Shown here: positions 5,766 to 46,082 of the stretch, in pieces
Layout: every line of letters begins with the position of its first letter
How positions within the stretch are numbered: the stretch's first letter is position 1
Assembly: GCF_014803895.1 (NCBI RefSeq)
Contig: NZ_JAAVAU010000017.1
Coordinates: 1-64,000, forward strand
Direction of reading: 5' to 3'
Length of the DNA: 64,000 bases
Source: Lactobacillus sp.
Lineage (GTDB): Bacteria; Bacillota; Bacilli; Lactobacillales; Lactobacillaceae
Made by a program: the position numbers and the translations under genes
The notes under the pieces: generated by a model
The model's input: only the letters and a program-made list of their open reading frames with translations
The model's database searches: none
Told to the model about the DNA's origin: nothing

Positions 5766-5793
5766 TTGTTTCTTACTTAAGGTAAGATAAAAT
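5766..5793 (+). promoter_or_regulatory. Promoter with CTTAC-N5-GTAAG operator before nifS-thiI
   Basis: TTGTTT (-35, 5766-5771), 16-bp spacer, TAAAAT (-10, 5788-5793). The spacer begins with the perfect palindrome CTTACTTAAGGTAAG (5772-5786). The same palindrome in the same position occurs at 43285-43299 and 44559-44573, each upstream of other tRNA-thiolation genes. A protein bound here would cover the promoter core, so repression is the simplest model. The regulator is unknown. Confidence 0.65.
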
Positions 5794-5843: not shown

Positions 5844-6998
5844 ATGATTTATTTTGATAACAGTGCAACTACCCAAATTTATCCTGAATCATTGGATACA
5901 TTTGATAAAGTTGCTACACAAATTTGGGGAAATCCATCTAGTCTTCATAAAATGGGAGATCGTTCTCATCAGTTATTAGAAGCATCTAGAAAACAAATTG
6001 CTGATTTAATTGGTGCTAAACCATATGAAATTTTCTTTACTTCAAGTGGTAGTGAATCTGATAATTGGGCTATTAAGGGTACTGCATTAGCTAAGAAAGA
6101 TTTTGGTAATCACATTATCACTACTAGTATTGAACATGCGGCTGTAACTAACAGTGTTCGCGCTTTAGAAAAACAGGGCTTTCGCGTAACAATGTTACCA
6201 GTTGATAAAGAAGGTCGTGTAAATCCTGAAGATTTGAAGAAAGCTCTTGATCGAGAGACTATTTTAGTTTCTATTATGGGAGTAAATAATGAAATTGGTT
6301 CTATTCAACCAATTCAAGAAATTAGTGCAATTTTGGAAGATTATCCTAATGTAACTTTTCATGTTGATAATGTTCAAGCTCTTGGTAAAAATGTTTGGGA
6401 TAAAGTTTTTACACCTCGTGTTGACTTGATGAGTTTGTCATCTCATAAGTTCCATGCTCCACGTGGGGTAGGTATCCTTTATAAAAAAGAGGGCAAGATG
6501 ATTGATCCTTTAGTTGATGGTGGTGGTCAAGAAAAAGGATTACGCTCAAGTACCGAGAACTTAGCAGGGATTGCAGCAACTGCCAAGGCAATGCGTTTGT
6601 ACCTTGAAGATGAAAAGCAAAATGCTAAAAAAGAAGCTACAGTTAAAACTAAAATTATTGATTACTTGAAAGATAAACCAGGCTTACATATCTTTTCGCC
6701 AATGAATGATAATTTTGTACCAAGTATTCTTTGTTTTGGTATGGAAGGAATTCGTGGAGAAACTTTGGTGCATACACTTGAGTCAAAGGATATTTTTGTT
6801 TCTACTACTAGTGCGTGTTCTTCCCGAAGCGGTGTTGAAAGTGGTACACTTAATTCAATGAAGGTACCTGATGATATTGCAACTGGTGCAATTCGGTTAA
6901 GCTTTGATCCAAGTAATAGTGTTGAAGAAGCTGACCATTTTATTGAAGTATTTGATAAGATTTATAAACACTTCGCAGAAATTAATCATTTGAAATAA
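5844..6998 (+). CDS. Cysteine desulfurase (NifS/IscS type), ThiI partner
   Basis: A PLP-dependent enzyme that takes sulfur from L-cysteine as a protein-bound persulfide. The 384 residues show the fold-type I features: the PLP lysine in SSHKFH (K202), H98 in EHAA, and the catalytic cysteine in TSACSSRSG (C325). The ATG at 5844 follows GGAGGT. The next gene, thiI, starts 9 bases after the stop, so this enzyme most likely supplies sulfur for 4-thiouridine in tRNA. A second, distinct paralogue is at 43338. Confidence 0.93.
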   Translation: MIYFDNSATTQIYPESLDTFDKVATQIWGNPSSLHKMGDRSHQLLEASRKQIADLIGAKPYEIFFTSSGSESDNWAIKGTALAKKDFGNHIITTSIEHAAVTNSVRALEKQGFRVTMLPVDKEGRVNPEDLKKALDRETILVSIMGVNNEIGSIQPIQEISAILEDYPNVTFHVDNVQALGKNVWDKVFTPRVDLMSLSSHKFHAPRGVGILYKKEGKMIDPLVDGGGQEKGLRSSTENLAGIAATAKAMRLYLEDEKQNAKKEATVKTKIIDYLKDKPGLHIFSPMNDNFVPSILCFGMEGIRGETLVHTLESKDIFVSTTSACSSRSGVESGTLNSMKVPDDIATGAIRLSFDPSNSVEEADHFIEVFDKIYKHFAEINHLK

Positions 6999-7007
6999 GG
7001 TGAAATA

Positions 7008-8225
7008 ATGCAATATACAGAAGTAATGGTTCGTTACGGCGAACTTTCTACTAAAGGAAAAAATCGTAAGGACTTTATTGGACGTTTAGCTGGGAATATT
7101 ACGAGATTACTCAATGATTTTCCGGAAATTGAAATTCATCCTAAGCATGATCGTTTGCACATTGTCTTAAATGGTGCATCTTTTGAAGAAATTGATGATC
7201 GTCTTAAGCGAGTTTTTGGTATTCAAACTTACTCTCCAACTATCAAGGTTGAAAGAAATATTGAAGCAGTAAAAAAGACTGCTTTAGAATTAATGCAAGA
7301 TACTTTTGAAGATGGGATGACTTTTAAGGTTAATACTCGTCGTAGTGATCATGAATTTGAATATGATACTAATCAAATTAATGAAATGATTGGTGATTAT
7401 CTGTTTGATAATATGGATAATCTCAAGGTTAAGATGAAAAAACCAGATATGGTTTTACGTATTGAAGTTAGAAAAGATGCAATCTATATCTCTAATCAAT
7501 TAATTAAGGGTGCCGGAGGGATGCCAGTTGGTACTGCAGGAAAGGCTGTGATGATGCTTTCTGGTGGTATTGATTCTCCTGTTGCTTCTTATTTAGCTCT
7601 TAAGCGTGGAGTAGATATTGAAATGGTTCATTTCTTCAGTCCACCATATACTAGTGATAAAGCTTTGGCTAAGGCTAAAGAATTGGCCGGCATTTTAGCT
7701 AACTATTCAGGTAAGATAAACTTTATTGCTGTTCCATTTGCTGAAATTCAAGAACAAATTAAAGAAAAGTTACCAGAAGGTTACTTAATGACTATTCAAC
7801 GTCGTTTTATGCTACGTTTAGCAGATATGATTCGTGCTAAGCGTGGAGGTTTGGCTATTTTTAATGGTGAATCTGTAGGTCAAGTCGCATCTCAAACTTT
7901 GGAATCAATGGTTGCAATTAATGATGTAACATCTACTCCTGTTCTTCGACCGGTTGCTACTATGGATAAAACGGAGATTATTAAGTTGGCAGAAGATATT
8001 GGTACTTTTGATTTGTCAATTAAACCATTTGAAGATTGTTGTACCATTTTTGCCCCACCTCGTCCAAAAACTAAACCTAAGCTTGAAGAAGCTAGAAAGC
8101 TAGAAGCTAGACTTGATGTTGAAGGCTTACTTCAACGAGCAATGGATGGAATTGAAGTAACTCCAATTTATCCAAACGAAACCTTCTTAGATGATCAAGC
8201 ACAGATTGATATGAGTTTACTCTAA
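7008..8225 (+). CDS. thiI: tRNA 4-thiouridine sulfurtransferase ThiI
   Basis: ThiI adenylates U8 of tRNA and inserts sulfur. At 405 residues it has the N-terminal ferredoxin-like and THUMP RNA-binding region (about 1-165) and the PP-loop pyrophosphatase motif SGGIDS (185-190). It lacks the C-terminal rhodanese domain of the Escherichia coli protein, as is usual in Firmicutes, where the dedicated cysteine desulfurase donates sulfur directly. The stop codon of that desulfurase lies 9 bases upstream and the two form an operon closed by the terminator at 8230. Confidence 0.96.
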
Positions 8226-43221: not shown

Positions 43222-43228
43222 GTAGGAA

Positions 43229-43258
43229 GAGGAAGCGTAAGCGCGCTTCCTTTTTTTG
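43229..43258 (+). terminator. Terminator of mtnN
   Basis: GGAAGCG pairs with CGCTTCC around TAAGCG, followed by TTTTTTT. Confidence 0.85.
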
Positions 43259-43278: not shown

Positions 43279-43306
43279 TTGATGCTTACGAAATGTAAGA
43301 TAGAAC
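43279..43306 (+). promoter_or_regulatory. Promoter with CTTAC-N5-GTAAG operator before the second nifS
   Basis: TTGATG (43279-43284), 16-bp spacer, TAGAAC (43301-43306, a weak -10). The spacer begins with CTTACGAAATGTAAG (43285-43299), in the same position as the palindromes at 5772 and 44559. Confidence 0.6.
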
Positions 43307-43337
43307 TCATGACTAAAATAGATAGAAGGATAAGTTA

Positions 43338-44495
43338 ATGGATAAGAAGAATATCTATTTAGATAATGCTGCTACGACTCCTATGTCGCCAGCTGTAGTA
43401 AGCAAAATTAGTGAAGAAATGGCTAATGATTTTGGAAATGCTTCTAGCCAACATATGTTTGGACGTACTGCACGTCATAGTGTTGAAGAAGCTCGGCATA
43501 TCTTAGCTCAATCGATTAATGCTCAAGATAAAGAGATTATTTTTACTTCAGGGGGTTCTGAAAGTAATAATAATGCGATTTTTGGAACGGCTCGTGCACG
43601 TAAAAAAATAGGTAAAAAAATTATCACGACTAAAATTGAGCATCCATCTGTTTTAAATCCGATGAATAGATTGGAAAAAGAAGGCTATAAAGTAGTTTAC
43701 TTAGATGTTGATGAAAGTGGTCATATTTCTTTAGACCAATTAAGGAGAGAATTAACACCTGATACAATCCTTGTATCCATAATGGCTGTTAATAATGAAG
43801 TTGGATCAATTATGCCTTTGAAGGAAATTGGGGAAATAGTAAAAGATTCTAATGCGTACTTCCATGTGGATAATGTTCAGGGATTTGGTAATATTCATGT
43901 TGATGTTCAAGATATGAATATCGATTTATTATCTACCTCTGCTCATAAGATAAATGGTCCCAAATTTTTAGGTTTCTTATACGAAAGAGATGGAATTGAG
44001 GTAGCAGATCTATTGCTGGGCGGTGAACAAGAGTTGAAGCGTCGCCCAGGTACTGAAAATGTACCTGGAATAGCAGGTTTTGGAGTAGCTGTTAGGGAAA
44101 TGAATGCTATCGATAAACAAGAGTTACAACAAAAGTATAGTAATTTTCAAAAAATTATATTAGATGCTCTGAAAGATGCCGATGTTGATTTTGAAATTAA
44201 TGGTACTCTTGAAGGGCAAGTTTCTCACCATGTTTTAAATCTTTGGCTTAAAGGCGTAGGAACTTATTCTGCATTGACTAATTTAGATTTAGCCGGAGAT
44301 GCAGTTTCAGGCGGTTCTGCATGTACAGCAGGTTCGCTTAATCCATCACACGTTTTAACTGCTATGTACGGAGCAGATTCACCACGTTTAGCAGAATCAA
44401 TTAGAGTTTCTTTTGGTCGTTATAATACCGATGAAGAAGTAAAGAAATTTGCAAATGATTTGATAGAAATGTGTCAGCGTTTAAATAGTAAGTAA
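43338..44495 (+). CDS. Cysteine desulfurase, MnmA partner (YrvO/IscS type)
   Basis: 385 residues. PLP lysine in SAHKING (K204), H102 in EHPS, catalytic cysteine in GGSACTAG (C329) on an extended loop. It is only distantly similar to the first desulfurase at 5844. Its place before DUF1831 and mnmA, as Bacillus yrvO-mnmA, says it supplies sulfur for 2-thiouridine at tRNA position 34. AGAAGGA precedes the ATG. Confidence 0.94.
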   Translation: MDKKNIYLDNAATTPMSPAVVSKISEEMANDFGNASSQHMFGRTARHSVEEARHILAQSINAQDKEIIFTSGGSESNNNAIFGTARARKKIGKKIITTKIEHPSVLNPMNRLEKEGYKVVYLDVDESGHISLDQLRRELTPDTILVSIMAVNNEVGSIMPLKEIGEIVKDSNAYFHVDNVQGFGNIHVDVQDMNIDLLSTSAHKINGPKFLGFLYERDGIEVADLLLGGEQELKRRPGTENVPGIAGFGVAVREMNAIDKQELQQKYSNFQKIILDALKDADVDFEINGTLEGQVSHHVLNLWLKGVGTYSALTNLDLAGDAVSGGSACTAGSLNPSHVLTAMYGADSPRLAESIRVSFGRYNTDEEVKKFANDLIEMCQRLNSK

Positions 44496-44552
44496 ATTTT
44501 AGTATTTGCGTTAAAGGATTAGTTTTATATACTAAAAGAGAAAACAAAAAAC

Positions 44553-44580
44553 TTGACACTTACAAATTGTAAGTTAAAAT
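44553..44580 (+). promoter_or_regulatory. Promoter with CTTAC-N5-GTAAG operator before DUF1831-mnmA
   Basis: Perfect -35 TTGACA (44553-44558), 16-bp spacer, TAAAAT (44575-44580). The spacer begins with CTTACAAATTGTAAG (44559-44573). It is the strongest of the three related promoters. Confidence 0.75.

Positions 44581-44602: not shown

Positions 44603-46082
<1,480 letters not shown>

Follow-up and report, generated by a model that had tools for sequence, protein, structure and literature searches.

The palindrome CTTAY-N5-RTAAG, which stands in its strict form before three operons for tRNA thiolation and cysteine desulfuration in the 64-kb stretch of Lactobacillus DNA analyzed here (the window), is very probably, judging from comparison of sequences, the operator of a YodB/QsrR-like thiol-redox repressor of the HxlR (DUF24) family. 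The core of its regulon would consist of trxB and thioredoxin genes; mnmA would have joined it within Lactobacillus, and the clade of the window would also have recruited nifS and thiI.

A motif scan of the window revealed exactly three copies of CTTAC-N5-GTAAG (5772-5786, 43285-43299 and 44559-44573), compared with 0.04 expected from shuffled sequences, and none of 100 shuffles attained three. The initial annotation had described this pattern at three thiolation promoters and found no other copy in the window; both statements hold, as neither the strict scan nor a scan with the relaxed CTTAY-N5-RTAAG added a further site. All three copies are genuine, and their number far exceeds the chance expectation. 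The predicted operators and the associated features, all on the forward strand, are:

5766-5771 and 5788-5793, + strand: hexamers TTGTTT and TAAAAT before nifS1-thiI, read by eye
5772-5786, + strand: predicted operator CTTACTTAAGGTAAG before nifS1-thiI, with an exact copy in L. colini (L192)
5844-6998, + strand: nifS1, cysteine desulfurase of the NifS class, upstream of thiI
7008-8225, + strand: thiI, tRNA uracil 4-sulfurtransferase, exceeding the equivalog-domain cut-off
43279-43284 and 43301-43306, + strand: weak hexamers TTGATG and TAGAAC before nifS2, read by eye
43285-43299, + strand: predicted operator CTTACGAAATGTAAG before nifS2, also found, as an exact copy, in the nifS2 promoter of L. 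colini (L001)
43338-44495, + strand: nifS2, cysteine desulfurase of the NifS/IscS class, upstream of DUF1831-mnmA
44553-44558 and 44575-44580, + strand: DUF1831-mnmA promoter, TTGACA and TAAAAT, from the promoter scan
44559-44573, + strand: predicted operator CTTACAAATTGTAAG in the DUF1831-mnmA promoter, with a relaxed site, exact in 25 cases, at all 27 Lactobacillus loci
44603-44938, + strand: DUF1831 protein (PF08866), profile match
44955-46082, + strand: mnmA, tRNA 2-thiouridine(34) synthase, exceeding the equivalog cut-offs

Each of the three palindromes begins immediately 3' of a possible -35 hexamer, with a 16-bp gap to the second hexamer. The annotated placement at the start of a 16-bp spacer fits all three sites, but two of the hexamer pairs are weak. 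Only the DUF1831-mnmA promoter (TTGACA-16-TAAAAT, matching the consensus at 11 of 12 positions) was given by the promoter scan; those of nifS2 (TTGATG-16-TAGAAC) and nifS1 (TTGTTT-16-TAAAAT) are by-eye readings absent from its output, which for nifS1 contained TTGAAA-17-TAAGAT instead. Furthermore, the position of the palindrome relative to the start codon and to the -35 and -10 elements varies among species and genes and follows no rule. Upstream of nifS2, a GC-rich hairpin with a T run (43227-43257, read by eye and not among the terminator-scan results) lies 3' of an MTA/SAH nucleosidase gene and separates it from nifS2. At least 76 of the best 80 MnmA loci have DUF1831 upstream of mnmA; its one solved relative (2IAY) is named a hypothetical protein, and DUF1831 could be a partner protein for MnmA or for the desulfurase.

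For promoter comparison, we scanned a genome collection with MnmA and used the best 80 loci, of which 76 were usable for DUF1831 and 73 for nifS2. The strict motif was present in only one of the 80, that of L. colini. This scarcity at first resembled a refutation; the promoters, viewed by eye, showed CTTAY-N5-RTAAG instead. It should be noted that the consensus was relaxed after the mnmA promoters had been viewed, so that the mnmA set is not an independent test. Among these loci, DUF1831-mnmA of Lactobacillus sensu stricto had the relaxed site exactly in 25 of 27 cases and within one mismatch in all 27. Exact sites were found in none of the 21 Companilactobacillus and none of the 28 other loci, and one-mismatch matches in four and two of them, respectively; the reversed control motif was exact at no DUF1831 promoter and gave no match in Lactobacillus sensu stricto. 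Comparison of orthologous promoters, for which the initial annotation had proposed an alignment, bears out the shared operator at DUF1831-mnmA and shows it to be patchy at the other two operons. Before nifS2, 2 of 25 Lactobacillus sensu stricto loci among the best 80 had an exact site and 6 had one with no more than one mismatch, all six belonging to the colini/johnsonii/hominis/rodentium group; one-mismatch matches were absent from the 21 Companilactobacillus loci and present at 4 of the 27 others. The nifS1-thiI promoters, from 28 genomes, contained one exact site and 11 within one mismatch, compared with 5 of 28 for the reversed control; outside L. colini, which has the exact copy, this site is suggestive only. 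DUF1831-mnmA is the only constant thiolation target in Lactobacillus sensu stricto, and nifS1-thiI and nifS2 are inconstant.

Within the best 80 loci, all 27 occurrences of the relaxed motif were non-coding, a number equal to the 25 DUF1831 and two nifS2 sites. The upstream regions of other ORFs in 26 Lactobacillus mnmA loci contained no relaxed site (0 of 150). In 100 trxB, thioredoxin, hxlR and nifS1 loci, 2 of 78 other ORFs had a site, both being the central trxB or thioredoxin gene of a truncated locus, which leaves 0 of 76. The end of the site lies 25-28 bp from the DUF1831 start codon in 6 of the 27 Lactobacillus loci and 11-14 bp in the other 21; it occupies the -35/-10 spacer in the johnsonii group and covers the -10 element in the other 21 (by eye), and before trxB it lies directly 3' of a -10-like hexamer (by eye). 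Arm and flank information was 1.79 versus 0.82 and 0.69 bits at DUF1831 (27 sites), 1.74 versus 0.53 and 0.33 bits at trxB (23 sites), and 1.95 versus 0.43 and 0.84 bits at hxlR (25 sites), a contrast to which the choice of sites by their arm match itself contributed. Arms that stay constant while their place shifts among the spacer, the -10 element and the region after it suit a repressor. The earlier proposal of a dimeric-repressor operator common to separate promoters is supported by this conservation, by the shifting position and by a predicted self-site of a DNA-binding protein (see below). A MerR-type activator had been considered unlikely, and we concur, since the mnmA spacer is 16 bp rather than 19-20 bp and the position is inconstant, which agrees with an HxlR-type regulator.

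Genome-wide counts were less distinctive. The strict motif, for which a whole-genome scan had been suggested, was not enriched relative to the reversed control across 27 Lactobacillus sensu stricto genomes (59 vs 55). Strict and control counts were 24 and 63 in Companilactobacillus and 121 and 108 in the 49 genomes with an ortholog of the candidate regulator described below (Fisher P=5e-5), a contrast that is indirect because base composition differs among genera. Relaxed sites numbered 34 in L. colini, 12 in L. johnsonii, 15 in L. hominis and 14 in L. rodentium (control 11, 9, 12 and 10), and 14, 9, 6 and 6 in four additional genomes (G007, G014, G017 and G023; control 11, 4, 8 and 1). The motif thus exceeded the control in seven of eight genomes, in four of them slightly (12/9, 15/12, 14/10 and 14/11), and fell below it in G017 (6/8). 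According to a simple ORF caller, 44 of 73 relaxed sites in the first four genomes and 23 of 32 in the other four were intergenic (29 and 9 in called ORFs); little weight is given to this placement because the motif is A+T-rich, holds TAA and shuns coding frames anyway. Could the sites have arisen by chance, or do they act in RNA, for instance as terminator stems? Two intergenic matches (L118:1501 and L150:1501) do lie within an apparent intrinsic terminator stem (by eye) and are false operator sites. However, conservation in 27 of 27 DUF1831-mnmA and 24 of 24 hxlR promoters, versus 0 of 150 elsewhere, and the overlap of the sites with promoter elements reduce the likelihood of such an origin to almost nothing.

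Beyond thiolation, gene-centered promoter checks in 28 genomes pointed to the thioredoxin system as a predicted core target. The trxB and thioredoxin-like genes had been picked for hits in the first four genomes, and counts are therefore also given without these. For trxB, 20 of the 25 loci kept had an exact site and 23 a site within one mismatch (17 and 20 of 21 without the first four genomes). For the thioredoxin-like gene, the values were 11 and 16 of 25 (7 and 12 of 21). Four trxB rows (L245-L247, paralogs of 28-29% identity, and the fragment L315) and three thioredoxin-like rows (the paralogs L273-L275) were left out, the truncated loci L215, L219 and L263 were scored as misses, and each set of 25 takes in one L. 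selangorensis locus (L241 and L272). In several genomes, intergenic sites preceded genes for trxB, thioredoxin-like proteins, luciferase-like flavin oxidoreductases and NAD(P)H-binding proteins. Genes with a site in no more than two genomes each were those for nitroreductases, an old-yellow-enzyme homolog, a disulfide oxidoreductase, DsbA-like protein, MsrB, Spx and Tpx, as well as pyruvate oxidase and cystine-type ABC transporter genes, both of which are family matches below curated cut-offs. In L. delbrueckii, DUF1831-mnmA, the thioredoxin-like gene and trxB account for three of six sites. Among 20 further strict sites, four in Lacticaseibacillus preceded trxA (twice), trxB and a luciferase-like gene (genes assigned by eye), and five lay inside called ORFs. 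Some intergenic relaxed sites also preceded genes with no evident redox link, and the loose motif alone therefore predicts no target.

Several individual loci deserve mention. A tandem CTTACAAAAAGTAAG pair (L319:1501-1515 and 1534-1548, G014) precedes a pyruvate-oxidase-like ORF that is cut by the locus end and has SpxB-type as its best family match, an enzyme type that yields hydrogen peroxide. In L. colini, CTTACATAAAGTAAG (L101:1089-1103) lies 60 bp upstream of an spx gene. Sites before cystine-type ABC transporter genes were observed in G017 (L330:1501 and 2408) and L. rodentium (L143:1501), which hints that some species may include cystine uptake in the regulon.

The initial annotation had suggested a regulon dedicated to s4U8 and s2U34 synthesis or sulfur supply. 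On this account the palindrome would serve tRNA thiolation and sulfur supply as a dedicated operator, and its presence at redox genes would be unrelated. The only three sites of the window stand at thiolation or desulfurase operons, DUF1831-mnmA is a constant target in Lactobacillus sensu stricto, and G017 and G004 have further sites before cystine ABC transporter-like genes (best family match, below curated cut-offs). However, the same motif precedes trxB, the thioredoxin-like gene and the HxlR gene in Lactobacillus, as well as flavin and NAD(P)H oxidoreductase and nitroreductase genes. In addition, other genera have the trxB site (12 of 17) while their DUF1831-mnmA promoters have it exactly in none of 28 loci and within one mismatch in two, and the membership of nifS1-thiI and nifS2 is inconstant. 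The dedicated character of the regulon is thus not upheld, and we consider this explanation very unlikely.

The candidate regulator came from a Pfam HxlR search of the first four genomes, in which one protein was common to all four; hxlR was chosen for promoter analysis because the targets suggested a YodB-like protein. Its gene lies between a methyltransferase-like gene and pheS (both assigned by eye), just upstream of pheS in four relatives. The protein contains an HxlR winged-helix domain (PF01638, 81.9 bits vs a cut-off of 20.8), and its best solved relative is YodB, a sensor of quinones and diamide (5hs7, E-value 1e-21), followed by QsrR. An N-terminal cysteine aligning with that of YodB, taken as Cys6, was present in 29 of 29 readable orthologs; a 30th row (L185), truncated at a contig end and misread, was left out. 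The C-terminal cysteine that takes part in the YodB disulfide was absent from the 24 readable Lactobacillus sensu stricto orthologs, which have WADKWA-like tails, and occurred in three (L188-L190) of the five orthologs from other genera. As QsrR acts via S-alkylation of its N-terminal cysteine, this absence touches the disulfide mechanism only.

CTTGT-N5-GTAAG was present in the promoter of hxlR itself at every one of the 24 readable Lactobacillus loci and, when the first four genomes are set aside, at 20 of 20; all share one and the same single-base departure, located in the left arm. From this self-site, the candidate would be autoregulated, and CTTGT-N5-GTAAG is perhaps a tuned, weaker operator. 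In other genera, an exact CTTAY-N5-RTAAG was found at one of five hxlR loci (L189). Orthologs (at least 46% identity) were detected in 49 of 72 genomes (40/44 and 9/28). None was found in 21 Companilactobacillus genomes, where the best matches had at most 36% identity, or in two metagenome-assembled Lactobacillus genomes (G005 and G010). The trxB site (one mismatch, 130 bp) was present in 12 of 17 ortholog-bearing outgroups versus 0 of 12 Companilactobacillus (Fisher P=1.2e-4), counts that are non-independent events, with Companilactobacillus forming one clade. The co-occurrence of regulator and site may accordingly reflect a single event. At 165 bp, 3 of the 12 Companilactobacillus trxB loci had a one-mismatch match.

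It is unlikely that the sites belong to another HxlR paralog, or that several HxlR proteins share one motif and different promoters answer to different paralogs, a possibility that overlaps with the pheS-linked repressor and does not exclude it. In the first four genomes, five of seven other HxlR loci (L151, L152, L153, L155 and L160; not L157 and L161) carried, in the promoter region, a site with one mismatch; most of these five paralogs are divergent from the neighboring gene, and operators could be common to several HxlR paralogs on the pattern of these sites. However, paralog numbers vary, and L. hominis, in which the pheS-linked protein is the sole HxlR match, keeps sites at trxB, the thioredoxin-like gene, nifS2 and DUF1831; the pheS-linked protein also tracks the trxB site across genera. 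Alternatively, the regulator could come from another family (Rrf2/CymR, Rex, MarR or TetR), the HxlR gene being merely one of its targets. A 15-bp palindrome with a 10-bp half-site spacing fits several regulator families, the co-occurrence search covered the HxlR family, and the HxlR-site link is drawn from sequence evidence alone. Nevertheless, HxlR paralogs likewise have such sites beside themselves, the YodB operator is of equal 15-bp extent and the HxlR ortholog co-occurs with the site, which makes a regulator from another family quite unlikely.

The pheS-linked HxlR protein, which remains our preferred candidate, shares with YodB of Bacillus subtilis (MarR/DUF24, HxlR family) the HxlR fold and the aligned N-terminal cysteine, whereas the C-terminal cysteine of YodB is missing from the aligned Lactobacillus orthologs. 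YodB represses spx in B. subtilis, and the spx site of L. colini parallels this link. The QsrR operator, GTATA-N5-TATAC, differs from CTTAY-N5-RTAAG. That of YodB, as given in the available excerpt of PMC8063818, is TACT-N7-AGTA, a 15-bp palindrome of 4+7+4 bp; the Lactobacillus site has the same length, divided as 5+5+5 bp, and a half-site CTTAY in place of TACT. In the available excerpt of PMC6798810, YodB targets are oxidoreductase and nitroreductase genes, which the Lactobacillus set shares while adding trxB and thioredoxin, mnmA, nifS and thiI. The same excerpt describes QsrR of Staphylococcus aureus as a YodB homolog that senses quinones by S-alkylation of one N-terminal cysteine, and the targets that it lists (quinone reductases, a nitroreductase and dioxygenases) exclude tRNA thiolation, unlike the Lactobacillus set (PMC6798810). 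Spx is not known to work through a palindromic operator. In the portion of the literature available, Spx of B. subtilis controls thioredoxin and thiol homeostasis genes and acts with the RNA polymerase alpha subunit; the thioredoxin and thiol targets are alike, whereas the alpha-subunit route differs from the palindromic operator seen here.

A 2013 regulatory network of lactic acid bacteria (RegPrecise) includes, in the part of its text available, a mosaic, Lactobacillaceae-only HxlR regulon (PMC3616900), that is, the same regulator family in the same bacterial family as our candidate. The available main text, supplements aside, contains no mention of mnmA, thiI, trxB or YodB (PMC3616900), and part of the present regulon may already have been recorded there. 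Within the literature available, our search returned nothing linking YodB to a Lactobacillus regulon, or HxlR to Lactobacillus thioredoxin or oxidative stress. The family of the regulator is known already, whereas the Lactobacillus operator, the trxB-centered targets and, most notably, the inclusion of mnmA seem to be new.

The comparisons establish that the site is conserved, which genes it precedes, that it recurs in a variant form before the candidate regulator gene, that regulator and site occur together and that the cysteine is kept; binding, repression, inducing signal and physiological purpose are what we infer for this repressor, as follows. By analogy with YodB and QsrR (PMC8063818, PMC6798810), a cysteine-bearing HxlR protein, presumably encoded elsewhere in the genome and known as a candidate gene from relatives, would bind CTTAY-N5-RTAAG as a reduced dimer across promoter elements and block RNA polymerase. 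On the same model, oxidation or alkylation of its N-terminal cysteine by electrophiles, disulfide stress or peroxide would release it from DNA, leading to derepression of trxB, thioredoxin, oxidoreductases and hxlR itself. In Lactobacillus sensu stricto, the same repressor would have taken over the DUF1831-mnmA operon, and in the clade of the window also the two cysteine desulfurases and thiI, such that tRNA thiolation and cysteine sulfur mobilization would rise jointly with the thioredoxin system.

Disulfides form in ThiI and MnmA during their catalytic cycles and must be reduced, for instance by thioredoxin, and several lactobacilli produce hydrogen peroxide. According to the available excerpt of PMC8584467, hydrogen peroxide desulfurates s2U in vitro; taken with the reductant requirement of the two enzymes, this would make a redox link to tRNA thiolation chemically sensible. 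As a tentative proposal, for which we see somewhat less than an even chance, the repressor might set the rate of wobble-uridine thiolation by mnmA in Lactobacillus sensu stricto, together with sulfur mobilization and s4U8 synthesis in the colini/johnsonii clade. The s2U of Lys, Glu and Gln tRNAs would then be part of a programmed response to oxidative or electrophile stress, in which peroxide-desulfurated tRNA is replenished and co-induced thioredoxin recycles the sulfurtransferases.

MnmA and ThiI are usually regarded as constant housekeeping enzymes. With a predicted redox operator kept before mnmA in 27 Lactobacillus sensu stricto loci, stress-tuned tRNA thiolation becomes directly testable, and in bacteria that are harmless. 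In the available excerpt of PMC2174512, trxB1 of L. plantarum is a key oxidative-stress enzyme, and no common motif was found by the authors among the genes answering to its overproduction; the Lactobacillus thioredoxin system now gains a predicted repressor. If the repressor reading is true, the sulfur decoration of tRNA would be tied to the stress response of the cell.
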